Below are positions 12,701 through 58,984 of a stretch of 64,000 nt of DNA, in pieces (position 1 is the stretch's first letter; the number at the start of each line of letters is the position of its first letter). A program made the position numbers and the translations under genes. The notes under the pieces were generated by a model. The model was given only the letters and a program-made list of their open reading frames with translations, ran no database searches and was not told the DNA's origin. Origin of the DNA: Spongilla lacustris (lineage: Eukaryota; Porifera; Demospongiae; Spongillida; Spongillidae); the NCBI GenBank assembly GCA_949361645.1, contig OX442422.1:5765642-5829641 (forward strand), read 5' to 3'.

Positions 12701-15700
12701 TAGTGCACATTCCAACGTTGCTTGTATGTGGCCATTTTGTTGCTAGGCTTACGATTTCATTTCAAAATTACTGGGCGTCGGTCTTTTTGACACACGTTTC
12801 AATGGAATGAAACAGTAGTGAGGATTAAATAAAAGTGTGCACTTGTTAGGGAGGAAGGTGAGAACAATGAGAATGTAGAGGACACACCAAAATAGTGGTC
12901 ACTGATGGTTAAAACTGTAGAAAGTGGGTGGCAGAGAGTGACAAGGATTTGGATACGTACATGTACGTCACTTTGGCTGAAGTACGTGAAAGATGGACGA
13001 GACACAATTGGTTTATTGAAATGTGCGGTTTGCGTACAGTTTGACGCAAGGCTGGTTGGAATGTACATGTACAACTTTCGTAGTACATGTACATTCATTG
13101 ATGGAACACCTAATCTGCGTACTATGTGAGTTTTAAAGATCACGCACAAAGTGGGATGCATGTTTGATGTAGCCACACCATCGCGCTTACCCTCCGCAAA
13201 GCGCGAGGGTGTGGCTATGTCAAACTACGTGCATACATGTACGTGCAATGGTGCTTTTTATAAAAGAAGCAAGTGGGGTCAAGTATTGCAGTGTATTTTA
13301 AATGTAAAGTAATAATCTTCATCGAATCATGTCTGAACAATTAAACCAGACATACTGGTCAGTTTTGTTCATGTTCTGACATTTTTTCAGTACACTTTAT
13401 GCTCCTTATTGGAAACCCTGGGTGTGATCTAAGTAAGTGCATTGGCTCATATGATTTTTAGTGGTTTTGTTCATACATGTGGTAGATTGACTATGGTATT
13501 GTTACCTTAAGTTCACTGAAATTCTATTCACATGGTCTTTCAAAACTTAGTTACCTTTCATGTGGCTGATTAAGTACACTGATAGGATGGTTATAAAATC
13601 TATTAATCACAACAGGAATGTCCCCTCCTTCACTACATGTCATGGCTGTTTGCTGCCTGGACACTAAGTTGATAATTAGACAATATGGTATACGCCCCAA
13701 AACTGTAATGTTCGTACCTCATTATCAAAGTCGTTTTTAGCGAGCCAAATACCACACATGCTGTAAGTTGTTCTGTTGAAACAAATAGCTCCCGCACACA
13801 CCCTACCAGTCTAGTCAACAAAGTTATCAACGTGCAAGAGCACTTCATTTGACTAATAGTTATGCGCAGGCCGTTTTTACGCGCATATAACTTTGGAGGG
13901 TCTACTTCCAGCTCGTTGTATGGCCGAACCAACCCACTAAACAGGTCGGTAAGCAAGAACACTCAACAAAACACATGGGAGAGCATATATATGATGTTCA
14001 GAACTAGCCACCTTTTTTTTTTACCACTAAACCGGGCATCAGTATTTTATGAATAATTGGTGTGGTTTTAAATGGAGCACCACATGCCGAAAGGCAAAGA
14101 GCGTTGCAGTGTGTAGCTGGTTCTTGGTGGAGGCTAGGGAAAAGAAATCAAGGAGTTCATATACCTGCTTAGCACTGTCTTTGCTATTAACACCAGCAAT
14201 GATTGCTGGTGTTAATAGCTGAATGACAGATCTAGCATCTTGTGCTGGAAGCACAATATCAGCAGCTCACACCATTCACAAGCATAGTCCCTTTAAATTT
14301 TGAAGCAGCTACAGTGTCTCATAATCCTGAGGGGTTTACAGCTCCTGTGTAGGGCACTCATGTGCAAGGTTCAAGGTGTTCAGTTGCAGTGGGGTTATAT
14401 GTTCATGCTACTTCATAGACACTCCACTACCTGCAACACAGCTAAAGGCAGCACCACAACTGATCCACACACTTAGTAATGACATAGCACCTGAGTGTAT
14501 GAAGGATATTAGGTATGGCACACACCAGTGCAATAAAGCCTGAAGTGAGACAACATCTTGTCTGCCCCAAAGGTTGGCATTAACATGCTTTCAGCTAATT
14601 ACAATTCACTGTTTTTTTTGTGGGTTGTTTTTTTTTTTAATGAGACCTTACATTTATGCCATATCACCCAGGCCTACCAGGACAGCAAGTTGCAGAACAG
14701 AAAAACGTGCCACGGGCAAGGAAATTAAAGTGCTTTGGCCTCCTGCATGGGAAAACAGCTGGAGCTGAATCCATACATGCCAGGTTCAAAGGACCTACCA
14801 TTCAACAGACGTACCATGGCCCCCTTATTCAGTACCAGACAAAGTTCTGCAATTGGTACTTAATGCGAAGGAGCATCTACCCTCCGTGGCTCCACAAAAT
14901 GTGGCAGCGACCCTCCTCCCAACTGGACCCAAGCGAATTCAGCAATGACCATATCGCTTTTCACGCGTAACTTTGGTACTACATATCACTCGCCAAAAAA
15001 AAAGGTGGCTTTTAGCACATACCATTATCAGCTAGTACCTTCTAGCTACTTCAAGATTCAGCTTTGATTTCGACTTTCTATGGGTTGGGTACGTAGATAA
15101 CTCACTTCCAACAGGAGAGGTACATCGCGGGTTACCCGCTTTCACGAGCTATAACGCAGCGTGGCAACAAACCTGTAGCATGAGGTAAGCACTGTTAATA
15201 GAAAAACGATGCTGGATTTATTTCGTGGTTTCAAACGGCGACAATAACCAATCTGTTTTGTGCTGGCTCACGTTTTTGTTCTGCTATGTGGTTGCCATGG
15301 GCGTTGCTAAGGCACCTAGACATCCTAAACCTTCGTTTTGCTGGCTTTTCCGTTAGTACCTAATCCAACCTTAAATTTGACATTTTAATTTAGTGTGCAT
15401 GGGTACATGTGTAGTTGAATGCATGCACATAATGCTATGCCCATACATCACGGTTGTTTGCGGCCATACATTTTGTGGACACTAGGTTATTTATCCTAAA
15501 TAGTCCACAAAAAATGTATGGCCGCAAACAACCGTGATGTATGGGCATAGCATTATGTGCATGCATTCAACTACACATGTACATGTACCCATGCACACTA
15601 AATTAAAATGTCAAATTTAAGGTTGGATTACACTGTAGGTACTAACGGAAAAGCCAGCAAAACGAATAGGAAACTCAGGGGAGAATTGTAAGCATACATG

Positions 15701-21834: not shown

Positions 21835-23596
21835 ATAACATGTGTTTGTGTGTGTGTGTGTGTGTGTGCATAACATGTGTTTGTGTGTGTGTGTGTGTGT
21901 GCATAACATGTGTTTGTGTGTGTGTGTGTGTGTGTGCATAACATGTGTTTGTGTGTGTGTGCATAACATGTGTTTGTGTGTGTGTGCATAACATGTGTTT
22001 GTGTGTGTGTGCATAACATGTGTTTGTGTGTGTGTGTGCATAACATGTGTGTGTGTGTGCATAACATGTGTTTGTGTGTGTGTGAACGTGTTTGTGTGAG
22101 TGCATAACATGTGTTTATGTGTGGTGTGTGTGTGCATAACGTGTTTGTGTGTGTGCTTGCATGTGTGTGTGTGTGTTAAAACTGAATATTACAACTACAG
22201 TAGCAGTAAAAAAAACCATAACACATCGTCTTATCACTACTCTCTGGCGACTTATGCAGAACGATCTAAAAAGACTATTCAAAACTATTCAACAAACGGA
22301 ACTAATATCGACACCTAAAAAGTGTTAACAATGCGGAATTTAGACTTTGCAACTAGCGCTTATACCTGTGGGTTGCGCGGATAGACGTTTTTGCGCGCAC
22401 GTACATGCGTACGATAGTTTTAGTAGCTAGTCGTCGTAGCCTTTGCATAGAAGTTTCAAATAGTAACATTTTTCTAGTGGCCAAAAACTAACAACTAACA
22501 CAAAACGATGACCTTGCAATGTGCTAAATAGTCAGCCTTTAAAACCATACGGAGCCCAATAACCCTAAAAACGAAGCCATATATTTGTCAGGCGATCGTA
22601 GCACTAAGACGATGTGTGTTGTTTTTTTTGACTGCTACATGTACATGTAAGATTAAGAGTAGGCACATTAAACTTCCTTTGTTCATTCTATTGCAGAGTA
22701 AAAGACTTGAGATGATACACCACATAAGTACCAAGCACAGTATACAGCAATTGGAGCTCTTGTTACACCTGCAAGCACAAGTGGGTGTGCTCCGCGAGAA
22801 GTTGAACGGTTTGGGGATACCACCTGGCTCACAAAACCCCCTGTCACAATCCCAACCTTCTGCCATAGCAGCCTCCACAGAGGTGAGCGTGCCTTTGCTA
22901 GGCAGCGGCAAGGATTCCGAAAAAAGTGTTGAGGACCTGAAGGGTAGGAAGGAAGACGTACGAGAGGCTTCAGTGCAGGATTTAAACATCCAGGGACTGC
23001 AAGAGGGTTTTAGCAAACACCTATACAAGCTAGAAAGCAAAATTGATTCTTTAAGCAACCTGGTACAGCGCCATGACGCTGACATAAAGGACCTGTCACT
23101 TAAGTACGAAATTCTCCAAGTGAAGACCACCAATGGATTGTTCATTTGGAAAGTTACCGACATCAAGCGTAGGTACAAGGAGGCCAGAGACGGCATCACA
23201 TACAGCCTCTTTTCTCCACCCTTCCTTACCAGTCCCCACGGATATCGCATGTGTTTGAGGATGTACCTGAATGGTGATGGGGAGGGGAAGGGAACCCATG
23301 TGTCCCTGTTCCTTGTTTTGATGAAGGGTGAGCATGACAGCATCCTTCCGTGGCCATTCAGTCAGAAGGTAACCTTGAGCTTGATCAACCAGAAGGATCC
23401 AAACCTCACCAAAAAGGAGGCGTTCCTCCCCGATAAGACAAGTTCTTCGTTCCAGAAACCGCAGCAGGAGTTTAACGTTGCCATTGGTTTTCCCAAGTTT
23501 GTGCCGCAGTTGTTAATAAATGACATTGAATTTTGTCAGGATGATTGCTTCTTTGTAAAGGCTAAAGTTGAATTGACTGGGATGAGTCTGGACTGA
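9274..23596 (+). CDS. TRAF2/3-like adaptor and RING-type E3 ligase, five exons, 453 aa
   Basis: Exons are 9274-9492, 9557-9649, 10207-10278, 19635-19712 and 22697-23596. Every junction has GT-AG borders and phase 0. Residues 28-64 form a complete C3HC4 RING (C28, C31, C44, H46, C49, C52, C61, C64). Three TRAF-type zinc fingers follow: C91/C94/H106/C110, C117/C120/H132/C137 and C144/C151/H163/H168. The first two are built across exon joins with exact C-x2-C-x11-H spacing, which confirms that exon 3 joins exon 4 over a 9.4-kb intron. A coiled coil spans about 250-298 and a MATH/TRAF-C domain about 300-448, with family motifs such as YLNGDGEGKGTH and LPWPF. TRAFs of this type trimerise and couple TNF-receptor-family or Toll-like signalling to ubiquitination in the cytosol; receptor partners here are inferred. 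Vertebrate TRAF2/3 carry five zinc fingers, so this one is shorter. The ATG at 9274 starts the only frame leading into the RING. Confidence 0.92.
9698..9745. repeat. (GT)n microsatellite
   Basis: About 23 uninterrupted GT units lie in intron 2 of the TRAF-like gene. His/Thr ORFs across it are artefacts. Confidence 0.95.
10002..10078. repeat. 12-bp minisatellite (GTGACCAGGCAT)
   Basis: About six tandem copies of GTGACCAGGCAT with a few substitutions and one partial unit, in intron 2 of the TRAF-like gene. Confidence 0.85.
11600..11960. repeat. C-rich minisatellite, unit about 45-50 bp
   Basis: Four diverged copies of a unit CACTGGTTGAATCAGCCAAA...GGACAGCACC are separated by poly-C runs of 8-25 bases, at about 11721, 11768, 11816 and 11862. 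The Pro-rich ORF across it simply translates this repeat. Confidence 0.8.
14656..14950 (+). pseudogene. Fragment of a RAG1-like transposase C-terminus
   Basis: The translated stretch contains FGLLHGKTAGAESIHARFKG followed by residues resembling WYLMRRSIYPP. The complete RAG1-like gene at 31.1-34.6 kb has FGLLGEQGAESIHAKF at its catalytic-glutamate region. The shared GAESIHA-x-F core, the preceding FGLL and similar downstream spacing mark this as a diverged copy of the same family. The upstream H-x4-H segment is not recognisable, and the rest of the protein is absent. It lies inside an intron of the TRAF-like gene on the opposite strand to the complete gene, so the family has more than one copy here. 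Confidence 0.65.
15332..15665. repeat. Large foldback (MITE-like), arms about 155 bp
   Basis: The left arm starts TCGTTTTGCTGGCTTTTCCG and the right arm ends with its complement. The arms match almost throughout, apart from a few indels in an ACATGT run, around a short AT-rich centre near 15495. No coding capacity. Confidence 0.9.
17043..17699. mobile_element. Non-autonomous TIR element, copy 1
   Basis: It begins AAAATCCGCGATACCATTGA and ends with the approximate complement, TCAATGCTGTCATGGACTTT, giving imperfect TIRs of about 27 bp. The body is about 657 bp, AT-rich and non-coding, and aligns along its whole length with the next element. It is a MITE-like DNA transposon with no transposase. 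Confidence 0.75.
17700..18382. mobile_element. Non-autonomous TIR element, copy 2, abutting copy 1
   Basis: It begins AAAGTCCACGACAGCATCGA and ends with a decayed complement (CTCATTCCTGTTGCGGACTTT). The body matches copy 1 with perhaps 75-80% identity by eye. The two copies meet with no intervening base, in head-to-tail order. Confidence 0.75.
18383..19634. other. Intron sequence, no gene seen
   Basis: A degenerate inverted repeat (about 19115-19250) and ACATGT palindromes; nothing else recognised. Confidence 0.4.
21674..22175. repeat. Poly-G run followed by compound GT/GCATAACAT minisatellite
   Basis: A run of about 29 G (21674-21702) is followed by roughly 12 tandem units of GTGCATAACATGTGTTT plus a variable (GT)n, covering about 21755-22175 in intron 4 of the TRAF-like gene. 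Large Cys/Val or His/Thr ORFs over it are translation artefacts. Confidence 0.95.
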
Positions 23597-30371: not shown

Positions 30372-31139
30372 CGGCATAGTCGATCGGCCCGGCGATTATT
30401 AATGCGACGGCGTAAGCGTATAGATTAATTATTAAACCGGCGCAAATTGCTTTGTAATTATTGCACGGCTGTCTACTCGCATTGAACGCGTGGAAATTAG
30501 GCCCTCCGCCCCAAAATTTTGAAATGGATTTGCTGTCCCATAGCAACGAACCGGACAACCAATGCCCTTTGGAATGCGCTATACACAAAGCACACCTTGT
30601 ACAATAAACACCTATAAGCCATACTGTGGTTAAGAAACACCTCTGACCTTCGTATGGCATATAAAATCACGTGGTCTTACCGCACAAAAAGGTGTCAGTT
30701 TTGTGTCTTGAAGTGAGGTACTTATTTCAGTGCGTACTGACCTATATACGTTCTGAAGACTATAGTGCCTCTCCTGCACATTAATTGGATACAAAACGAC
30801 GATAAATGTATGCTATGTAGATAGTTGTACTTGTTTCTACTAAAGGCGTGTGTCGACGAATTTTCTGAAGTAGTGTTCAAACGCCTTGAAAATCGCCATT
30901 TTTGTTGGTTATTTCGCGCGTACTTATTGCCTGGGGCAGAAGGTAGGGTCATATGGAAGGGTAAAAAGTTATGTTTATATATCCTGTATCATGTTTTCCT
31001 GTTCTCTGAAGGGTTTGGAGCTGCAGCAAGCAGTCAACTGCCTGCATGGCATGGCTCATGCGTACACCTAGCTAACGGATGATGACGAAGACACCTCAAT
31101 AAATGATGTGCACAGTTTGAAGACGTATGTGAGTGAGGA
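30372..31139. other. Downstream flank of the RAG1-like gene, no gene seen
   Basis: No ORF with known domains. I looked for RSS-like or Transib-like ends (CACWRTG) that could mark the 3' end of a transposon and found only a weak GCACAGTTTGAA near 31108, not convincing. Confidence 0.4.
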
Positions 31140-34100
31140 TTAAATATTTTTTTTCTTCTTTTGTGGAGGGGGGACGGCAGCTAAAACTTGTGGGGAAATG
31201 CTTATTAAGTGTTCTTTGACAATGCACAGCAAATGCTTTACTTTGTCAGTAATTGCTGTGTAGGCTAAGCCAAGTCGTGTAAACTTGGCATGGATGGACT
31301 CAGCCCCCTGTTCGCCTAGGAGGCCAAATCCAACGTGCGTAGAATTAGCCCATGTAGTAGCATGATCCTCCAGGATATGCATCTTAATGGGGACTGTTGC
31401 CTCTGGGAAGGACTTCCGGAAGTACGCCATAAACTGTTCAATGGCTTGTTCTGTACAAATCAATTGTATAGTCTTGAGTTCAAATGAAATCATAAAAAAT
31501 GATACTCACCTAGAGCAAAGGTTTGTGCTTCATCAATGAAATTCTGGTCGTATATGTTGTGGCAGCTAGCAAACATGCAAAATGTATTGACCAGAATGTC
31601 GGTACGCTGTTGTAGCTCTACAACGCGATGGGGCAATCTGTTTTGTGCAGTTTGAACCAGTGACTTGCACAGTGTCTGGATATTAGATAGCTGTAAAGTG
31701 AAGAAGTTGCATGATCACTACTTCTAAACTTAGATTTTTAGTACCTTTAGAGTCTTGTGTACATGATTGCCCACAAAGGCACCTCCAAAATATTGCTGGC
31801 GATGTACTCCTATGGACTGCAGTGCAGAGTCCAGCTCCTTAACAAAGGGGCCGTCTTTGATCGAAAATCCCTTCTTCACTGTGGCTGTGCAGTTGGCTAC
31901 ATCTGTTTCCTAGTGTGATTGGTGTGTCAATACACATTTTATACTGCATGCATGGCTTACAAGTTGTTTGAGAGATTTCATCTTGTCTTCACATTGCTTG
32001 AAGAAATCCACAGTGACTGGATCATTCTCCCCAACAACTAGTGATACATATGTTGCCATTTGCTGCGACAAATCATATGACTCCTGGGCTTGCTCCAACT
32101 CTGCTTGTAGCTTCCGAAGCCTTTGCAGCTCATGGCTGTAATTGGAGAAGCTGAAGTGGGCATCGTCTCTTGAGTGCAGAGCCAGCTCAAGGTCAAGGGT
32201 ATGACACTCGTCTTCAAGCAACCCATAAATCTTGGTAAAGATGCCCAAAGTGATGTGAAGACCAGGTGGGCATACCTAGCGTGTATGTGTGCGTGTGCAT
32301 GTGCATGATCATACAAAACAGTTTTTGGCAAATTCATTTATACTTACTTGTGAAATGGGGATGTTGAAAATAGGCTCTGAAATGCAGTTATAGAAGTGTT
32401 GTGCTTGTTTCTTGCCAACCCCTGAAGCAATGTAGTGCTGATGGTCAGCACTGATAGTTTCAAATGTTCTGGGTGGAGCTGGTCCTCTGACTGAGAGAGG
32501 TGTTACTAAGTGCTGATGGTGGGCCAAGCAATACAAACATGGGTAGCATCCTATAAGAAAGGTGCAATGTTTGTACACTTTGTTTAGCACCTATGCAAAT
32601 AGTCACATACCACTTGCTCCTGACAGCCCGTACATTCTAGTAATGAACTCGTAGTCTCCACACATGAACAGCCTGAGTGTGTATTGCCTGTAGGTTGAAT
32701 GTTCATTTTAAAAATCATTTGATATTAACTACTGTTCTTACCTCCATTTCATTCCTTGCAGATGTGCTACTTGATCTTTATAGCGGTCAAGTGCTATGTG
32801 GAGGTTGGTAACAGTGTCGCCCGCTTCAAAGCAGCAAAACACGCAGGTGTTGTGGACTGAATTAGGCGCTGGAACATTTACAATCTGAAAGTTCATCTTG
32901 AACGAACCGCCTCCTTTGTCCCCTCCTATTTTTAACCACACCTCACTGGCAGGGATGACCCCATCATGCCAGGTAAGCCGTCCTGTCCTACATAGGGTTA
33001 AAATTATTTTGCAAGGTTTATGCCTTGACCTCCTAATTAACCTTTCATTCTCTTCCAAGAGGTCAACAACCTTCTGAACCAGATCTGGAATATAAACCAG
33101 AGGAGCTCCCCTAAGCTCTTCACCACCAGAAGGATGAGGAAATGAGAATAGAGCCATCTCTCCTTTTAAGTTGTCGCCCACAATTTGCCTGCAAATGTTG
33201 CGCATCCGCTGCTCCCCAGCTAGAGATACTCCTGACACTTTCAGCCACCTAGACAAGTAATGCATATGTAGGTTATTTTTTTCGTTTTTGTGTAATGCTT
33301 TACCGTCTAAGTTGTCTCAAACCGTTCCAGGGAATAGCCATGCCGACTTTTATGGCCAATACTTGGACAGAGTCGATTGCAATGTTTGTGATGCCTGCCT
33401 TCTGCAATAGAGACATCCTCTCTTCATCACTCAGAGTGAGTACCTCCTCCTCCATCAGGGCAGATGGCTCTCCTCCACTGACGATGCTTCTGGCTGTGTG
33501 CATCTCTGCACGCCTCGTCTTCACAGTCTTGGAGCAAGCAGCTGAGGTCAGGTGGCGGGCTTTGGTCACATGCATGAATGTCATTGGCTACAAGGTATGG
33601 TTTACATGTAGTGTGTCATAACAATGTAAGTGAGATTGAATACACTTAACTGTTCCTCCTGTAGGCAGTTGTATTATGCCTGCTTGATCGGGGCTGGTGG
33701 AGATGGCCCTCTTCAGCAGTGCGGCTGCTTCTCTCTCCTCACCAGCAGTGAGATATTGTGTGCACTCGTGCCCATCGTAACAGCCAGCCTTCATATCCCT
33801 GTGGCACTCCACACATTGTACCAGTACATCCTTCAACAAGAGCAATACAGCATTTGGTGCTGGTCTTATCTCTGTGGGTACCAAGGAGCTATCCTCCGAG
33901 CAGCAAGGACACACTGGGGTTGATGCTGCTACTCGCTCCACAACACAGCTGGTACAGGCCAGCTGACGGCATGGCAGTTCAAGGGGCTGTTTGAGAATGT
34001 TTGAACACACCACACACTTCAACTCCTTCAGGACAGTGGCACTGTTTTGGCCTGCCAGTGGTGGGTATGGCTCACTTGAGAAGATTGGAGGAGGGGCAAT

Positions 34101-34559
34101 CTTCCAAAGATGGGCAATTAACATGTTCGGTGTGAGGCCAGGTTGACGACCTCTGCCAACTGTATGCTTCCTAACTGGACCTTTTGCATTGAAACTGAAA
34201 TGCTCACACACCTGTGGTATGATTTATACTGATGATGTTGCATAAAAGCATATACATGTAGTATGTACCTTACACCCTTCATTGGTATGTGCTTCCCATA
34301 CAAATGGTGTCAGGGCACACCTGTGGTGCACTCCTCCTACCCTGGCACTGATGATCCTCTGCATTGTATGTTTACAGCAATGGCAGAAGTGTTCAGGGTA
34401 CACTTGAGCATTATCAGTATTGGTGTTAATAGCAAAGGCAATTTGCAAATCAGCTGCAAATGCTTTGCATTCGTGGATCTCCTTTTTATGCTTCCTTGTC
34501 ATCAGCCTTTGTCCACATACTCTGCAGTGCAGCGGCAGTTGTTTAATGTGGTAGTCCAT
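31140..34559 (-). CDS. RAG1-like protein (Transib/RAG1 superfamily recombinase), ten exons, 964 aa
   Basis: Minus-strand exons: 34559-34269, 34211-33651, 33587-33304, 33248-32742, 32687-32611, 32550-32348, 32275-31961, 31909-31745, 31690-31510 and 31450-31140. All nine introns are 51-72 bp with GT-AG borders, and joining them leaves an open frame of 965 codons. Residues 12-99 match the RAG1 N-terminal zinc-binding region: HCRVCG, then FCHCC, W88, H91 and C96-x2-C99. A RING-like domain has C163, C166, C178, C183, C186, C198 and C201; its usual His is Gln (Q180). A second Cys/His motif follows. In the core, D489 (GGDKGGGSFKM) is the candidate first catalytic Asp and D559 (GDYEFI) the second. 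C578-x2-C581 lies 19 residues after D559, the RAG1 D708-to-C727 distance. H886-x4-H891 precedes E908 and E912 (GEQGAES). The family cuts DNA by DDE chemistry. Activity is inferred. An in-frame stop sits just before the ATG. Confidence 0.85.
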
Positions 34560-34581
34560 TCAGCTTGTAATATAACCTATG

Positions 34582-34781
34582 NNNNNNNNNNNNNNNNNNN
34601 NNNNNNNNNNNNNNNNNNNNNNNNNNNNNNNNNNNNNNNNNNNNNNNNNNNNNNNNNNNNNNNNNNNNNNNNNNNNNNNNNNNNNNNNNNNNNNNNNNNN
34701 NNNNNNNNNNNNNNNNNNNNNNNNNNNNNNNNNNNNNNNNNNNNNNNNNNNNNNNNNNNNNNNNNNNNNNNNNNNNNNNNN
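34582..34781. other. Assembly gap (200 N)
   Basis: Exactly 200 N, which suggests a nominal scaffold gap of unknown true size. It hides the end of the Ty3/gypsy element and everything between it and the 5' flank of the RAG1-like gene. Confidence 0.99.
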
Positions 34782-37700
34782 CTACTCATTAGCAATTCTG
34801 CTGGGCTGTATCCATTTTGCAAAGGTGTGGCTCTGTACGATAGCAATGCTAAACATGGATCAGATGTTTTCTTCCACATTGTCTTGATCGTTTTTACAGC
34901 TCGCTCCGCTGCTCCATTGCTTTGGGGAAATAACGGACTACTCGTTATATGGTCAAATCCATATTCCTGACTGAATTTCAGGAATGAGTGAGATGAAAAC
35001 TGTGGTCCATTGTCTGAAATGAGTTCTTCAGGAATACCATGTCTTGCAAATATTGACTTTGTTCGGCTTATCACTTCCTCTGCTGTCATATGATCCAAAT
35101 GTGCAATCTCAATAAACCTGGAATAATAATCGACAATAAGCAAGTAGTTGTCCCCATTCCAGTGGAAAATGTCTGCAGCAACTCTCTGCCATGGTAAAGA
35201 AGGTAACTGTGTTGGTATTAACGGTTCCACCTGTTGTGGTTGATGTTTAATGCACTGTGGACAATTCTTCACCAATTTCTCCAAATCTTTTGAGATGTTA
35301 GGCCACCATACACTCTGTCGAGCTCGCTCTCTACATTTAGTTATCCCTTGATGTGCACCATGGATTTTATTTAAAATTTCTGTTCGGAGTGGCTCTGGAA
35401 CAACAATCCTACTTCCTCTCAACAGTAGCCCTTTTTCAATGCTCAACTCTCCAGCAACTGAAAAATATGGTTTAACTGCTTCAGGTACATCTTTCTTTTC
35501 TGGCCACCCTCTGTAGCTGTACGCAGCTATCTGCCTACATACACTGTCAGTTTTCTGACATTGACGTATCTGGTTAAGTTTCTTGTCAGTAGCTGGGATA
35601 CCCTGGATAATCCAATGAACGAATGCCTCTATGTCATTGTGTTGAGCTTTTTCCTCATCCGACGGTTGAGTTACTGGAGCTCTTGATAGCGCATCAGCAA
35701 TAGTGAGGTTTTTGCCAGGTACATGTGATATTGAAAACTTGAAGCGCATTAGTCTCAAGCGAAAACGTTGTACCCTGATGGGAAGCTCCTCCAGATTCTT
35801 CGTACTCAACAAGGGAACCAATGGCTTGTGATCTGTTTCCAAATGGAATTTTAATCCCAGCAAATAGTCTGAGAAACGTTCACAAGCCCAGGTTAGCGCT
35901 AACGCCTCCTTTTCAATTTGTGCATATCGCTGCTCTGTTGGAGTCATAGCTCGTGAGATGTAACAGACTGGAAGTATTTTACTATCTCTCTGTTTCTGTA
36001 AGAGGACACCACCCAAACCAAATGAGGATGCATCTGCTGAAACCACTGTAGGGAGATTAGGATCATATAAAGCCAATAGTGGTGAACTACTAAGTAGCTT
36101 TTTAATTTTCTGGAAAGCTCTTTGCTGATCCGTTCCCCATACCCACGAATTTTTTTTACTAAGCAAATCTCGAAGAGGCTTTGTTTCATGGGCGATATGA
36201 GGTGAGAATTTGCTCAACTGGTTGATTATCCCAAGAAACCTTCTAATATCACCAACATCCTTCGGTTCCGGAAACAGAGTGATGGCCTTCATCTTTTCCG
36301 GGTCTGGACTGATCCCCTGATTACTCACAACATGACCCAGGAATCGTATCTCTGTCTTTGAAAATTCACACTTACCTGCATTCAGTGTAAGTCCAGCTGA
36401 AAGTAGACGTTTGAGAACTTGATCTAATCTTCTGTCATGTTCCACCCGTGTTGTTCCAAAAACCAGAATGTCATCAATCAAACATACTACTCCGTCCATA
36501 CCCCCAAGAATCGAAGACATTCTCTTCTGAAACAATTCAGGGGCTGATGTGATTCCAAATGGCAAGCGATTAAAACAGAAGCGCCCAAACGGAGTTATAA
36601 AAGTTGTCAACAAGGCTGATTCACGAGCCAATGGGATCTGCCAAAATCCTGAATTGGCATCCAATTTAGAGAACAATTGTGCCCCAGTGAGTTGTGTTAA
36701 GATTTGATCAACAACTGGCAAAGGATGATTCTCTCTACAAACATTCGCATTTAGCTTTGTAAGGTCAACGCAAATTCTGATATCCCCATTTGCTTTTGGT
36801 ACTACCACCATCCCTGCACACCAATTGGTTGGTTCTTCTACGCTTGATATCACACCAAGTTCTTCCATCCGCTTCAACTCTGCTTTGACTTTAGGCAATA
36901 AAGGTGTGGCAACCCTTCGTGGAGTTGTGATAGCGAATGGTGTGGCTCCCTCTTTCATCCGTATCTTGTATTCTGGTCCCATTATTCCTAATCCTTCAAA
37001 CACCTTAGGATATTTCTGTTGCATTGCTGTCACTCCCACAAAATCCACTCGTTGCAAGAGGCTTAAAGATTCAATAGCAGGTCTTCCAAGTAGTGGTACT
37101 TGCAGTTCAGGAAGGACATATATATCCTGCTTTACTTCTTTTCTCCCAAGTCTTAGGGTTCCTAAGAAACAACCCCTCACCAACAGTTTTTGATTTCCTG
37201 GACCATACAGGATCTTTTCTGGATAGCGAAGTGTCGTATTTTTCAACTGCTTGTACACACTTAGGGGAATTACTGTCACGTCTGCGCCAGTGTCAAGCTT
37301 GAAATGTATCTGATGTCCATTCAAACTAAGACTCTGTTTCCATGGAGATTTGTCTAAGTTGGTATCTCCAAGTGTATCGATAAACACAGCCTGGACTGAA
37401 CTTGCAGTCTTTGTGCGACACATTTCTTTCCAATGGCCACGCCTCTTACACTTGTGACATATCGACTCTCTTGCTGGACAGCGTTCATAGCTGTGTCCTG
37501 GGGTCCTTCCACAATAGGAGCATTTACCTCTGTAATCTGATCCTCCCCCTGCGCCAGGTGTGTACGCTTGTGCTTTCCTTGGTCGCACCTCTCTATCCTC
37601 AGGTTTAGCTTTAGAGTGCACTCGATCTATTCGCTCTTCCGTTTCCACTTCCCTTCTCAGTAGAACTTGCTGCTTCTTCACCATTTCTGATTGACGAACC

Positions 37701-38188
37701 ATTGTCACTGTTTTTTCTAACGTTAGATCTGGGTCCAATTGTAGCTTCTCTGAAAGAGACACGTCTCTCAGCCCTACAACAATTCTGTCTCTAATCAGTT
37801 CGTCACGCAAACTAGCAAAGCCACAATGTTCTGCAAGAGCATGCACACTGGTAACAAAATCATCGACAGATTCACCCTCCTCTTGCTTTCTCCGATTGAA
37901 TTTCGCCCGCTCAAAAATCACGTTCCTCTTCTTCCCAAAATAGGAATCAAATTTCTGTTTAACCACCTCGTATTTCTTCTTGTCCGTCTCGCTCAAGTTA
38001 AACATGTGTAGGATATCCTCCGCTAAATCTCCCATCGTATACAGAAGCATATTTACCTGTTTCTCTTCACCCTTTGAGTCCAATTCAGTCGCGAGTCGAA
38101 ACCGCTCAAACCGTCTGACCCATTTCGGCCACTCTTCCGGTTGGTTGAACGTGAAACCCTCTGGAGGTGTTACTTGGCTAGTTGCCAT
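34782..38188 (-). CDS. Ty3/gypsy gag-pol polyprotein (partial at C-terminus)
   Basis: One open frame of about 1135 real codons starts at the ATG at 38188 and runs into the gap. Order: gag region (about 1-200); zinc knuckles around 223-257, the second a classical CCHC; aspartic protease with DTG at 299-301; reverse transcriptase with IDD at 571-573; RNase H around 715-840 (SADASSFGLGG, then ETDHKPL); integrase with H943, H946, C976 and C979, and catalytic D1006, D1059 and E1095, which gives the D-x35-E spacing. Gag and pol are fused in a single frame, as in many Ty3/gypsy elements. The protein copies element RNA into DNA and integrates it. The integrase C-terminus is missing only because of the gap. 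No stop or frameshift was seen, so the copy may have been recently active. Confidence 0.93.
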
Positions 38189-38207
38189 GGCTTAAAACTA
38201 GATTAGA

Positions 38208-38347: not shown

Positions 38348-38985
38348 GGCCTTTTCACGGTTTGTCATGACTACTGTATTTGTTGAGACATTTGGTCCAT
38401 GGGGATGAACAGCCCACCAATTTTAGGAATATGATTTGAAACAAGCAATTCTACTCAGTCTACCCTGGTACATTGTAAATTTCCTATGCAGCTGTCTACT
38501 CTTCATTCAAGCCAATGTGCGTGCTTTCAAGGCCTGTTCTGCTGTTGAAATGCCAACCCAGTTCAGAGCAGATGGGATCATTACATGTACATGTGCATGT
38601 GTTTTCTCTTATGTCTGCCTACATTTTCATTGTAGCTGCAGCACCTGCAAACACACCTGGTTCAGACAAAATACATGATTTAAGTGTAGAAGTGATTGAA
38701 AGATCAATGCCGGTTGTTGCAGAATATCACCAGTGGACCATTATATACAGGCATTGTTACATGTAGCTAAACCAGCATGCACTAGCTTCCTGTTTGGGGT
38801 TGAACATAGCTAATTTATGAATCTTTTATCATACTATTTAATGTACTTACATTTTACTACAACTTGGTTGCATATATGCAATGCATTGCTAAATTCTGCT
38901 AAATCGCCCTGTACTATATGCAAATGAGTTTTGTAATGTCAATTCGGTACTTTAAATTTTATGTGAGTTCTCTTATTTTTTATAG
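38348..38985. other. Upstream region of the double-MATH gene
   Basis: A 5' exon of the next gene should lie here or within the element. A stretch after a good acceptor (TTTTCATTGTAG, ending about 38635) is open to 38766, but no donor gives the right phase, so I do not call it. Confidence 0.3.
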
Positions 38986-40892
38986 AAATCTTCCATCATG
39001 TCCATGAGAAAGACAACCTTGAAGAGCAAGGTGTATATGATTTTGTTAATCCACTTTTGGATGAGTTCAAATGCCCAGTAACTGGAGGTGTGCTCACAGA
39101 ACCATACCAGACTTTATGTGGTCATTACATATCTAAAGACGCAGCCTTAAATCTTCCGAAATGTCCACTATGCACAACTGAGGAACCAAACCCTGTACCT
39201 GACCTGTGTAAGAAAAGGGAAGTTTATGCTTTACAGGTACATTGTCATTTTAGAAGCAGAGGATGTTCATGGTCTGGTGCAATGAGTGACCTAAAACAAC
39301 ATTTACAGAAATGTAATTATTTGTTAATTCAATGCAAGTGTGGCAAAGTTGTGAGGTTAGGTAGGATGGAAGATCATCGCACCAACCATTGCTTTCAGCG
39401 ACCATTCCACTGCACTTATTGTGGCCACACCAACAGTTATGAACAGATAGCAAAAACTCATCAACCTATTTGTGCCAGTGAAGACACAGAATGTCCAAAC
39501 AAGTGTAGAGAAGGAATGCACATGCAACGGCAGCATGTGTGTGATCACCTCAAGTGCTGTCCTCAAGAAATGATAGACTGTGAGTATTTATTTGCAGGAT
39601 GTGAGTTCAAATGCAAACGTTGTGACATGAATGAACATACGATATGTGGTATTAAGCATCACTTGAACTTGTTATCTTTGTACAAGCATCAAATTCTACC
39701 TAAGCTGAAAGCATTGCTTGATCAAAATGGAAATTTATTGTCTTCTGCAAATGTGCCCGAACAAATATATAGCCCTCCACCTGAAATAAAAATTGACAAC
39801 GTTGCTTCATTCTTTCATGATTGCAAACCATTGTACAGTGACCCTTTTTACTCTGACTTTGGTGGGTATAGAATGTGTCTAAAGATTTACACTAACAGAG
39901 CTGATGATAGTGTTGGTACTAGTACCCACATATATGTAAGCGTTTGTGTTATGGAAGGAGAGTTTGATAAAGACCTTAGCTTTCCATTTTGTGGGGAGGT
40001 CACTGTTCAGTTACTTGGGACAAGCCTTGGGTATGAAAGAAAGTTTGAATTCAATGGGTTAAAATGGAGAAACTATGTCGGACAAGAATTTATTGCCGAG
40101 AAGGTATTAAGACAAGGGAATGATTATTTGAAAGATGTCAAATTCCTCATTTTTCGAGTAAGCAGTATTGTAAACAATCCTGTAACAATAAAAACAGCTC
40201 CTCCCATATGGACTGGATTTTTACATGTACAGCATGAGCAGTTATTGGAACATATATCTCATTTTCCACACACTGTATACGAATGTGATCTCTGTGCAAT
40301 GGACCTTCAAATGCAACTTAAAGATGATATATACTTGCCTGCACTCTCTCAATATTCAAAGCTAATTCATGAAATGACCAGAAGATTGGAAATTCAAAAC
40401 ACTGCATTGGAAAAAAAAAAGTCTAATTCTATACTTGCCTTCAGGCCTTTTCCAGAGTTCACTATGGATAACTTCAAGAAATATCATGATAGAGATAAAT
40501 CATGGAAGAGTCTGCCATTTTATTCCCATTTCAGAGGCTATAAATTGCGTCTAAGAGTAGATGGTTATGGATATAATCAACACTTAGGAACACATCTCTG
40601 TGTTGTAGTAATCTTAATGAAAGGTCCATTTGATGATTATCTAAAGTTTCCATTTTATGGATCAATCACTGTTCAGTTGGTGGATCAATACTCTGGTAAA
40701 AACCATCATGAATCTACAATTGAATTCCAAGAAAACCATCCACAGTCAGTAGTTGGTAGGCCAAAAGGCAAAGAAAATCAAGGTCTTGGAGAATTAAATT
40801 ATTTTCCTTTAAAAAAATTATTTTCTACTGAGAGATTTTTGAAAAACAATTCACTTCATATCAGAGTTACAAGAATAGTGATAAACTCTTAA
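38986..40892 (+). CDS. TRAF-like protein with half-RING, TRAF zinc fingers and two MATH domains
   Basis: The main exon follows an acceptor (TTATTTTTTATAG) at 38985. The frame runs open through the RING, and no ATG precedes it, so at least one 5' exon is missing from this call. Numbering from the Leu at 39057, the RING-like part has C6-P-V-T9, C21-G-H23, S26 and C36-P-L-C39. That keeps the second zinc site (C21, H23, C36, C39) and loses the first. TRAF-type zinc fingers cover about 55-195. MATH domain 1 (about 245-380) contains FGGYRMCLKIYTN and SFPFCGEVTVQLL; MATH domain 2 (about 460-610) contains FRGYKLRLRVDGYG and KFPFYGSITVQLVD. The order matches the gene at 54.5-57.9 kb, a clear paralogue. 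It is likely a cytosolic adaptor, with targets unknown. MATH domains usually bind receptor tails or substrates. Confidence 0.88.
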
Positions 40893-54523: not shown

Positions 54524-57500
54524 CTATACAACTTGGATTACACTTAGACATGTGATCAAAAATACCAATAATATTGATACAATGAGGAGTAATGTTTCTG
54601 CACAGGGAGGTGAAATGCTTTTCACCGCATCTGCAATGTATACAAGTAGTAGAAGCGAAACTATTAGCTCAAGATATTTTGGTTGTTTCAGTTTCTTGGT
54701 CAGTTTCTTAACCAGTGTCTGCTTGTCTTCCTTTAAGCATTTCCTTGCCCGTTTCATTTCCTTGTTAAATACATCGGTATAGTATGACCCTGTGGTAAAA
54801 GCATTTGTTGATACATTTCAATGTGCAATGCGTATATGATCATACATTTACATTAGAACGGTTATGAAAAGGCAATGCATCTTATACCGTAGGTTCTTTT
54901 ATGTTGTGTCATATAAATCTAATTAGGCAAAATATAAACAAATGCACACATATCATTCCCTCAGGCATAGGCTGGCTACTTGGATAATGGCAAATTAAAG
55001 CCTTGCTTTGATATAGTTGAGCATAAGGTTTCAGCCACTTAGGTGCAATATACATAGCCATTCTCTTCCGAAAATGTTCAGCTTCATTACAGTTGTATGT
55101 AGAAGTCTGGATTTACTGAAGTGACCAGAGGTGTAAAGATACCTCTACAGTCTTCAATTAAGCTGGTAACATTCATTAACAAATACTCTAATATTAATGA
55201 AAACCTTCTGTAACCATTGCCAATTTAATTTGTGACATTATAAAACACTTTTCAATGTGTTTCTATGCACCTTACTAACAAATATTTTTACAAGCGTTAA
55301 AAACAGTTGTGCTTATTGTGGATTACAATTTTGTACATTAAGCCGGTTTCCTACAAAAGAAAAATATTACACTGAGAGTATTCTTGATTGGACAAGTACA
55401 TGTATGTATGTACATGTAGAAGTAAAAGGAGTATACATGTTTTTAGATAGGTAGAAATGTTTCTAGATACATTTAGATTGTTTAAACAATGTAAATATCT
55501 GCTACATGTGTACATGTGTACTTACATGTATACCTGTACTTATAATACAGCATACATTCACATTTGTATGTGCCTTTTCCTCACCTTTTTCGACTATGTA
55601 CAGCTGTTGGATAGCTAAACGCTGATCTGTAGTATCACAGGAAGCACTGCATGTATTTACTACCACTTTAGCTACTTTAAAAAGGAGGCGGTCACAATTC
55701 TTCACTTCTTCAAGTGGTACAAATCTGTCATTTTCTAAACCATTGTCTATTGCATAACAATCTTCGTGTTCATTATGTGACACTTTACTGCCAACTTTAG
55801 ATGGAACGTCAGAACTTGTAAATTCAAATCTTGACTGAAAGCAATCTAATTGTGTCTTTTGTTTAAAAAGCTGTACAGTTATTTCACCGCGGAAGGGAAA
55901 ATCCAGTCTGTCATCGAAAGCTCCTTTCATCAGAACCACTGCCACACACAGGTGACGACCCAGTTCTTTGCCACATCCATATCCGTCGACTCTAAGATGC
56001 ATTTTGTAGCCCCCAAAATGTGTGTAAAATGGTTTACTTCTGAAAACTTGACGATTTTTGTAATAATGTTGAAAATTTCTCATAGTAAATTCTGGAAGGT
56101 CATGGTACATGTATACTGCTGGTTTTGCTGCACATGTTGAATATGCTTTATCCAGAACATGTCTTTGTAATTCCAATCCTTCAATGATTTCGTGTACTTG
56201 GATTGATAGGGGGCCCAGAGTCTTTTCAATAGTTTTGCATGCATTTGGCACCAAAATTGGATCATACTCATTTATCATATAACAGTAGCTGCATTCTGCA
56301 ACTTTGTGTGATGAATGTTCTATGTGCTCTTGAAGTTGGGCATGCGCAACATTTCTGCAATACATTGGCGATGGTGTACACTTCATTACTACCCTTGCAA
56401 CCCGAAATATTAGTCTGTTATTCTTCATGTAGATTTTTTCATCCTCAAAAGTTCGATGGGTTAACAAAGCATTGCAATTCTGTGTATTTTCATCAAACTT
56501 GAAAACTGCACATGCACTCATTGTGTTTATTTTTGGCTTCTGTTTGTCTTCAATGTTTTGATCAACCAGCTGGACCACTATTTCACCACAAAAGGGAAAT
56601 TCAAGATCACTGTCAAATTCCCCTTTCATTAGTTGAACAGCTGACCTAAGCCCAATAGGTTTGCTTGCATCAAATGTGATGCACAATTTGTATCCTCTAA
56701 AATGTGTATAAAAAGGATCACTGTACCAGGGATTGCAATTCTTCTCATGTCGTAGGTAGTCTTCCATCTTTAACTCTGGACAGTTATTACAGATACGCAG
56801 TTTCTGCATTGATCCTATTTGCCTGTCCTCTGCTTGAATCTTTCTAATTTTATTAATGGTTGTATTCCAGTATGTTACTAAGAGCTTGTAGTGATGCACA
56901 GTAGAGCTTGCATTATGTGATTTCAGCAGTTTGCGCATAACTTTTATGTTGCAACCTGCATGGACGAAATCACAGTTAGTAACCTCATTTGGGCAGTGGC
57001 TGCGGTGCTCTGTGAGGCTTTGCCGCTTTAGATTTCTTTCTCCACAGTTTGCAGGACATTCAATAACATTGGATGCACAATTTGGCATGTGATTTGTCGT
57101 TATGTCATCATGACTAGATTGTGCACTATTGCAGTACGGGCAAGTAAATGGTCGCTTTGGACAGCTAGCCTTGTGTTTCTCCAATAACCCGCAGCGTATA
57201 TTTTCACCACAAGAGTAAGGACATTTAGTTTCTACATATTGGCATTCCATACAGCTCAAATGTGTTTCTAACATATTTAGTGGCCCAGTCCATGTACAAC
57301 CCTTGTTTACAAGTGGGCATTTCACTTCCAATAGATGAATTCTTCGTTGCAGAGCTCTATCACGTACTGCTTTGATTGTGCTCTCCAAAGCTGTAGATCT
57401 CTTATGACCTTCATTGCTCATGCGCACCATTTCAGTAGAGAAAGGATCTTTATCACTCTTCAGAAGTTCACACTCTGGAGCTTCATTTTTCCAGGCTTCA

Positions 57501-57946
57501 TATTTCTTCATCAAAACTTTGTTCTCCAAAGACTCACTCTTTGAGTCAAATTTCACAGCTTCATTCTTTAGCATTTCATTCTCCAAAGTGAGAGCTTCGT
57601 ACTTCAGGGCTGCATCTTCTCTTGTTTCCATTTTCAGAGCTTCATTTTGTACACTTCCATTGCACTCCATGGCTTCACTGTTTAATACTGTAACTGTTTT
57701 CTTTCTGCACAAAGGACAAGGTTTGTTCTCACTCAGGAGCTTATCAATTGCTTCTTTAGATAGATGATGGCCACATGATGTCAGGTATGGATCAGTGAGG
57801 AGATCAAGAGTCACAGGGCAAATGAAGTCCTCCGGGGGGGTTTGCACAAGAAGATCAGTCCAATACAATCCTTGCATTTCTTTGATTGCTCTTTCTGGAA
57901 CTGGAAACAGTGATACAATTTTATTCCATACAGCTGCATCATGCAA
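54524..57946 (-). CDS. TRAF-like protein with half-RING, coiled coil, two MATH domains and predicted membrane tail
   Basis: Main exon 57946-55585; proposed last exon 54789-54524. The donor AAAAAG|GTGAGG (intron from 55584) and acceptor TTTTACCACAG|GG are in matching phase (G + GG), giving about 875 codons. The start is uncertain: no ATG at 57946; the ATG at 57877 has good context. RING-like C43-P-V-T46, C58-G-H60, S63, C77-P-L-C80 keeps only the second zinc site, as in the paralogue at 39 kb. A Glu/Lys-rich coiled coil covers about 86-165 (repeated NEALK/NEMLK units), TRAF zinc fingers about 210-330, MATH 1 about 395-530 (FRGYKLCITFD) and MATH 2 about 625-760 (FGGYKMHLRVDGYG, DFPFRGEITVQLF). 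The tail exon adds a basic helix (KRARKCLKEDKQ) and two hydrophobic segments (YLELIVSLLLLVYIADAV and TLLLIVSILLVFLITCL). If this splice is used, the protein would be membrane-anchored. Without it, the frame reads into an ACATGT repeat. Confidence 0.82.
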
Positions 57947-57953
57947 TGTCCAA

Positions 57954-57979
57954 GTACATGTACATGTACATGTACATGT
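57954..57979. repeat. (ACATGT)n palindromic run
   Basis: Four tandem TACATG units just upstream of the MATH gene; the most regular of many such runs in the window. Confidence 0.9.
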
Positions 57980-58984
57980 GGATGTACATTTATCTTAGTT
58001 GTATATGTAAAGTGCATAATATTAAATTTTATGTGTCATGCACTATGAGGTATGAAAATTGCACTATGGTCCGTGTATAAAACCGCCAATCAATTTATCA
58101 ATTGTTCGATAAATTGAAAATTACTATTTTGACGTACTAGTTGCAAATTTTGGTCGATTTCCCTAAATTTTGCTAAGAGAATAATTGATTTTTGTGTGGC
58201 GTCTACAATTTTTAAATTTCAAATCAAATTAGAAAATAGTGAAATATTCAATTGGTTTCACGCAACTGTTGTCTAATTTATCATTTTTCATTATGGATTA
58301 ATTCTTTTCTCTTTGGAATGAAACCGACTCAACCGACTCTTTGACATGGAACCCTCCCCCTCTATAACGGCCGCTATTCTGGGAACAAGTATCCATTCAA
58401 GCATTCGTTTGTGCGCTTGAATGAATCTTGCTTGATTCAGATATAGTCCTCTGTCGAATCAAATCGTCCCATTAAAGATGGAGCTGCCTGATGAAAGTCC
58501 ACACATCAATGAAGTTCTCTGAGCTTCTCTCCCTTTCTCACTCTCTCTCTCTATCTCTCTCTCTCACAACACACACACATCCACACGAATGATTACGGAC
58601 TACACATGGCAATGCACCCAAACTCAAAGAGAAATACAGATACATATGTTTGGCAGACAATCGAAGGTACTCGTTTCCTTTATTACGTGGAACTTTTTCA
58701 TACCTTTGTTTGGGCCATATTTCCAGATATTTGTGTTACTTGAAAAGTCATGTCGTGGGCCTGATCTATCGCACTGCAAGGCAATTTTCTATCCGAGACA
58801 AAGATCGTCTAGCCTCTGCTCCCCAGCATCCATATGTATCAATTGCTAATGGGATGCTCATTAGTACTGAACTATTATTATTAACATAAACACCTGAAAG
58901 ACACAATAATTACATGTATTGCCCAACAATCAACCTAGAGTAACTCTGCTTAGCAAGGCCCTTGCATTGGCTCTGACCAGCATC
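57980..58984. other. No gene seen; CT microsatellite
   Basis: Includes a CT/CA-rich microsatellite at about 58523-58580. No exon recognised. Confidence 0.5.

Follow-up and report, generated by a model that had tools for sequence, protein, structure and literature searches.

A likely sponge transposon of Chapaev type with a predicted RAG1-like transposase and ends spaced like 12- and 23-recombination signal sequences

What is a gene with the domain order of vertebrate RAG1 doing in a genome that is very likely that of a sponge? The gene in question occupies positions 31140 to 34559 of the 64,000-nucleotide stretch of DNA analysed here (hereafter the window), and an initial annotation had taken it for a complete RAG1-like gene with a full RAG1-like arrangement. 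We think it likely that it encodes the predicted transposase of a multi-copy sponge transposon of Chapaev type (DUF1280), with a RAG1-like predicted layout and with ends spaced like the 12- and 23-recombination signal sequences (12-RSS and 23-RSS). This reading starts from what is directly established, namely the gene, its copies, their borders with 4-bp duplications, two-block ends with inner starts at positions 20 and 31, and an N-terminal match to RAG1.

The gene and its genomic copies

The gene and the element around it occupy the following positions.

31140..34559, minus strand: transposase gene, 10 exons, 964 codons plus stop, PF06918 (DUF1280) E 5.3e-12
34559-34269, 34211-33651, 33587-33304, 33248-32742, 32687-32611, minus strand: first five exons
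32550-32348, 32275-31961, 31909-31745, 31690-31510, 31450-31140, minus strand: remaining five exons
30464..34581, minus strand: DNA transposon copy assigned to the Chapaev type, 3' end and gene (blastn to 19 other genomic copies)
34582..34781, no strand: 200-N gap, at which the 5' end of the element is lacking

The ten exons that had been proposed to join without a frame break into 964 residues were reconstructed, and the nine introns between them are all GT-AG and 51-72 nt long. The exon chain is backed by other genomic copies, 12 of 19 of which have 964 codons and identical splice sites, and by the 820-amino-acid Ephydatia model P0001 (95% identity, 87% of the window protein covered). The closest database proteins in a protein search are those of Ephydatia muelleri, which makes the suggested non-vertebrate, sponge origin very likely. 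An alignment-based protein search yielded only three proteins, and a scan of IMG/VR gave 29 stretches that fit a pattern, none of them a relative.

The gene is indeed complete, but the surrounding transposon lacks its 5' end in the window, and the gene does not stand alone: it belongs to a transposon family with many copies. The genome contains at least 116 exon matches to DUF1280, and 19 close relatives of the window copy were retrieved and compared. One of these, L022, is 100% identical over the window copy's 4118 bp and continues into a complete 4577-bp element, in which the 5' part missing from the window measures 459 bp. The border at window position 30464 is reached, or approached to within 40 bases, by 17 of the 19 (all save L020 and L021), and an upstream border, absent from the window copy, is common to the other copies. 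Target duplications in the 16 two-ended copies are exactly 4 bp in 14, 5 bp in one and imperfect in one, and CACGG is found on both ends of these 16.

Since mean divergence is 0.8% (15 copies of the window family) and 964 codons are kept in 12 of the 19 copies, the family is likely to have moved recently. In a tree of 29 proteins, built without RAG1 or Transib as outgroup, all 13 sponge members in it form one clade (100/99) with the JGI-sourced P0051 as its sister (99/99); this single sponge clade, with several deep subfamilies, argues against a recent arrival. The space outside the gene in L022 amounts to about 0.48 kb upstream and about 0.68 kb downstream, and a RAG2-sized partner does not fit within the element. 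The RAG2 family PF03089 had no match in the genome, in a search that produced no positive control.

Spacing of the two ends

One end of the element lies within the window.

30464..30501, no strand: 23-type end, CACGGCT (30464-30470), 23-nt spacer, AAATTAGG (30494-30501)

The ends consist of two blocks, an outer CACGGYTGT and an inner AMAYTAGG, the latter beginning at position 20 in one of them and 11 nt deeper, at position 31, in the other, which is the 3' end. The nonamers of 12- and 23-RSSs likewise begin at positions 20 and 31. The block match in the window family's own two ends was reached by 39 of 500 shuffles and is not significant alone, and other subfamilies were therefore examined. 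L031 has CACGGCT-12-ACATTAGG on one end, CACGGCT-23-ACATTAGG on the other and CCAT duplications; L036 has a 12/23 layout like that of L031, with AAACTAAG on both ends and CACC duplications. A relaxed scan of 350,708 bases (outer block CACGGYT, spacers of 0-40, five shuffles as control) returned a spacer of 12 nineteen times, 23 twenty times and 4 once, with none in the shuffles.

Across the whole genome, CACGGYTGT plus AMAYTAGG with 31 spacings allowed matched 817 places, against five for the reversed pattern used as control. Exact counts were 501 at a spacer of 12 (control 0), two at 6-11 (control 2) and four at 24-36 (control 2), leaving 310, by subtraction, at 13-23. Among the 100 of these places that were listed, all on contig C1, 64 have a spacer of 12, 33 a spacer of 23, two a spacer of 14 and one a spacer of 15; they form 22 facing pairs within 8 kb, spanning 882 to 7212 bp, of which 21 combine a 12 with a 23 and one combines a 12 with a 14. 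Ten facing pairs were retrieved, and 4-bp duplications were found in seven by script and in L050 by eye, a second CCGTG having misled the script. The ends are fixed in two respects, the inner starts (positions 20 and 31) and the 11 nt that separate these in depth.

We hypothesize that a pair of transposase subunits binds both ends of the element, that the core grips the outer CACGG block, where the DDE residues would cut beside CAC, and that a nonamer-binding-like region of the protein reads the inner AMAYTAGG block. Because the inner blocks differ by 11 nt (about one helical turn) in depth, a complex of one 12-end and one 23-end would be favoured, the enzyme presumably pairing 12 with 23, so that the element would be excised as a unit and inserted elsewhere through a 4-bp staggered join.

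An alternative, which we consider rather unlikely, is that the element is a Chapaev transposon whose 12/23 spacing is an ordinary asymmetry of its ends, inherited in one sponge lineage, with the inner block a subterminal motif or promoter piece that has no role in pairing. Such an account sits poorly with a spacing that is mostly fixed at exactly 12 and 23 although the spacer sequence varies, with 21 of the 22 facing pairs having both kinds of end, and with the covariation of inner blocks between both ends of a family (54 of 56, equalled in 50 of 20,000 shuffles), which could have come about through gene conversion instead. Several observations do, however, weigh on its side or otherwise against paired 12/23 ends in a mobile family. 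Besides the result for the window family taken alone, every end family is from a single genome and related to the others, and the pair counts are not independent events. The spacing has exceptions (4 at L029:1421, 22 at L028:5838 and 14-15 at three of the 100 places listed), L030 has no outer block at its 5' end, L036 has CACGGTGGT at its 3' end, and two of the ten retrieved facing pairs have no duplication. AMAYTAGG is similar to the RSS nonamer ACAAAAACC in its A-rich beginning only (PMC8289069). The conserved outer block is at least 9 nt long and, in most families, the inner one begins 2 nt sooner; '12/23' is therefore a count by the RSS convention. Three copies, L024-L026, have flank sequence in common and are not fully independent. 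Variants in 11 of the 12 intact copies number 16 silent and 38 changing, the random ratio being 3.45 changing per silent, and thus give no more than a weak sign of selection.

Other end-like sequences were also noted. A DUF1280 subfamily (L032-L033) lies in tandemly repeated stretches; its 3' end has a spacer of 23 and the inner block ACATTTAC, and its 5' end was not found. Within the window, the left end of an 88-bp near-palindrome (15449-15536) fits the 23-type end (CACGGTTGTTTGCGGCCATACATTTTGTGGACACTAGG), and this sequence may be a minimal derivative carrying the same kind of end twice. Look-alikes of 12/13- and 22/23-type ends, some starting CATGG, CACTG or CACCG, occur at 13641, 21556, 53721 and 63124, and their partners were not found.

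Predicted domains of the transposase

Along the protein, the domains are placed as follows.

34191..34559, minus strand: RAG1 N-terminal zinc region ('Chapa' domain), residues 1 to about 104, exon 1 and start of exon 2
33762..34022, minus strand: RING-like domain and next zinc finger, residues 161-247, matching RAG1 282-373
33420..33662, minus strand: nonamer-binding-like region from TGGTP, residues about 281-340, exons 2-3
31140..33420, minus strand: predicted RAG1-type catalytic core, zinc site C578/C581 and H886/H891
32918-32920, 32654-32656 and 31299-31301: predicted catalytic residues D489, D559 and E912, respectively

In profile and protein matches the RAG1-like N-terminal zinc region, the RING-like domain and the RAG1-type core stand in RAG1 order, in agreement with the initial annotation. 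An N-terminal profile (A4, 11 relatives, window protein first) matches the RAG1 N-terminal domain 21wb_A at E 5.1e-15, and the RING-like domain of P0001 matches 1rmd at E 4.1e-4 (Foldseek). Profile A1 aligns with RAG1 from the RING via GGRP to the start of the core (whole match E 2.3e-9). The usual RING His zinc ligand is missing from the window protein (CRQLAC), and it was found in none of the 11 sponge members with a readable stretch among 16 inspected; with the His absent, the domain is not that of a C3HC4 RING E3 ligase with all eight zinc ligands.

For the core, which had been annotated as a Transib/RAG1-type DDE core, structure and sequence give different answers. Structure predictions, made on relatives and not on the spliced window protein, yielded the expected RNase H-like RAG1 fold, with a predicted-fold score of 27.0 for RAG1 vs 24.9 for HzTransib. 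Profile searches, in contrast, matched the N-terminal part to RAG1 and placed the core in DUF1280, the match given above exceeding the Pfam cut-off. This DUF1280 core is present in 19 of 19 relatives, the RAG1 core family PF12940 is not among the Pfam matches of the window protein at E up to 1, and its RAG1 importin-binding match is sub-threshold (E 0.0012). To the points on the opposing side must be added that a profile of the first catalytic stretch, compared with PDB sequences, gave three rows at E 0.21-1.3 and no RAG1 or Transib, leaving predicted fold and motif spacing as the basis for homology of the core. On these grounds the core is predicted to have the RAG1/Transib fold, with a D489/D559/E912 active site and a C2/H2 zinc site. 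LHITLG was dropped as the site of the second aspartate, motif spacing favouring GDYEF (D559).

The RAG1 domain order and a predicted-fold score slightly higher to RAG1 than to HzTransib might point to a sponge gene of the true RAG-like (RAGL)/ProtoRAG (RAG1L) kind. RAGL elements come with a RAG2L partner, duplicate 5 bp and have a CTT* motif (PMC7204232), and the ends of ProtoRAG are spaced 27/31 (PMC8289069), in all of which the window element differs. Its duplications are 4 bp in 14 of 16 copies and 5 bp in one, its core matches the DUF1280 profile, with no RAG1 core profile among the Pfam matches at E up to 1, the tail motif Cx2Cx3GHx4C is absent from the protein and, in 31 of 31 aligned relatives, from the last 150 residues, and there is no room for a RAG2-like gene. 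RAGL/ProtoRAG membership was therefore rejected as highly improbable. A domesticated, immobile host gene, which the missing 5' end of the window copy in the assembly might suggest, is just as improbable, given 19 close copies elsewhere, most with target duplications, and the identity of all 4118 bp to a complete element.

Relation to known systems and neighbouring features

Chapaev elements make 4-bp target duplications and have ends beginning CAC. The window element is alike in both respects (14 of 16 duplications exact), and in its DUF1280 core, 'Chapa' zinc domain and RING-like domain; it differs in its very likely sponge host, its many intact copies and its bipartite ends spaced 12/23. The architecture itself is not new: in 2015 Kapitonov and Koonin reported Chapaev proteins that have the N-terminal 'Chapa' domain of RAG1, in two subgroups along with a RING, and a core distantly related to that of Transib, naming lancelet and sea anemone (PMC4411706). 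A survey of RNase H-like proteins assigned DUF1280 to Chapaev transposases, in one clade with RAG1 (PMC3985635), and a 2025 grouping unites EnSpm, Mirage, Chapaev, Transib and RAG1 through the C2C and H3-4H motifs that they share, the CMCT group having ends of the form CA..TG and duplicating 2-5 bp (PMC12730594). What is new here is the 12/23 spacing of the ends, which the initial annotation did not mention: the available excerpts of these Chapaev papers state none with such spacing, although no search aimed at Chapaev end spacing was made. Sponge elements of this kind, RAG1-like or Chapaev, were likewise not reported in the available portions of the open-licence literature searched. The E. 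muelleri genome paper, as available, has in its main text no word starting 'transposable', 'transposon' or 'RAG1' (PMC7385117).

With the RAG1 of jawed vertebrates and its 12/23 RSSs the window family shares the order of N-terminal zinc region, RING-like domain, nonamer-binding-like region and core, the CAC start of the ends, and the inner block positions 20 and 31. It differs in being mobile, in its 4-bp duplication, in belonging to the DUF1280 family, in having no RAG2, in its inner block AMAYTAGG and in a RING without the His ligand. Transib, the transposase of which is core only (PMC4411706), is unlike the window element in this and in its 5-bp duplications. N-RAG-TP of Aplysia, compared by description, shares the RAG1-like N-terminal part, and is reported as a mobile element with that part only (PMC8355894). 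According to the same 2021 hypothesis paper, some Transib elements are the only known case of 12/23 asymmetry apart from RAG, and the ends of invertebrate RAGL do not follow 12/23 (PMC8355894).

The 20/31 geometry may reflect either common ancestry with Transib and RAG or a second origin. A predicted RAG1-like fold together with 12/23-spaced ends in what is very likely a sponge element implies that the RAG1-like layout and the 12/23 spacing probably did not arise with adaptive immunity. More tentatively, and with less confidence than doubt, we suggest that the whole RAG1 layout and the 12/23 rule predate RAG2, RAGL and bilaterians, and that an ancestor of Chapaev and RAG1 used a RAG1-type enzyme on 12- and 23-spaced ends; if so, V(D)J recombination of vertebrates kept the 12/23 rule instead of inventing it. 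An abundant family of many intact copies, very likely in a non-bilaterian animal, here joins a full-length RAG1-like protein to 12/23 ends, with no room for RAG2. It thereby makes testable whether a RAG1-type enzyme without RAG2 can obey the 12/23 rule, and whether the nonamer-binding region is the reader of spacing.

On the far side of the gap lies a retroelement.

34782..38191, minus strand: Gypsy-type retroelement pol (reverse transcriptase, RNase H, integrase; Pfam), adjoining the gap

The open frame of this pol exceeds 1100 codons and extends into the 200-N gap. Elsewhere in the window, TRAF-like frames with MATH domains (Pfam) lie at 22532-23596 (+), 38967-40892 (+) and 55502-57994 (-), the last of which additionally matches RING and TRAF zinc finger; the three frames possibly form a TRAF gene cluster.
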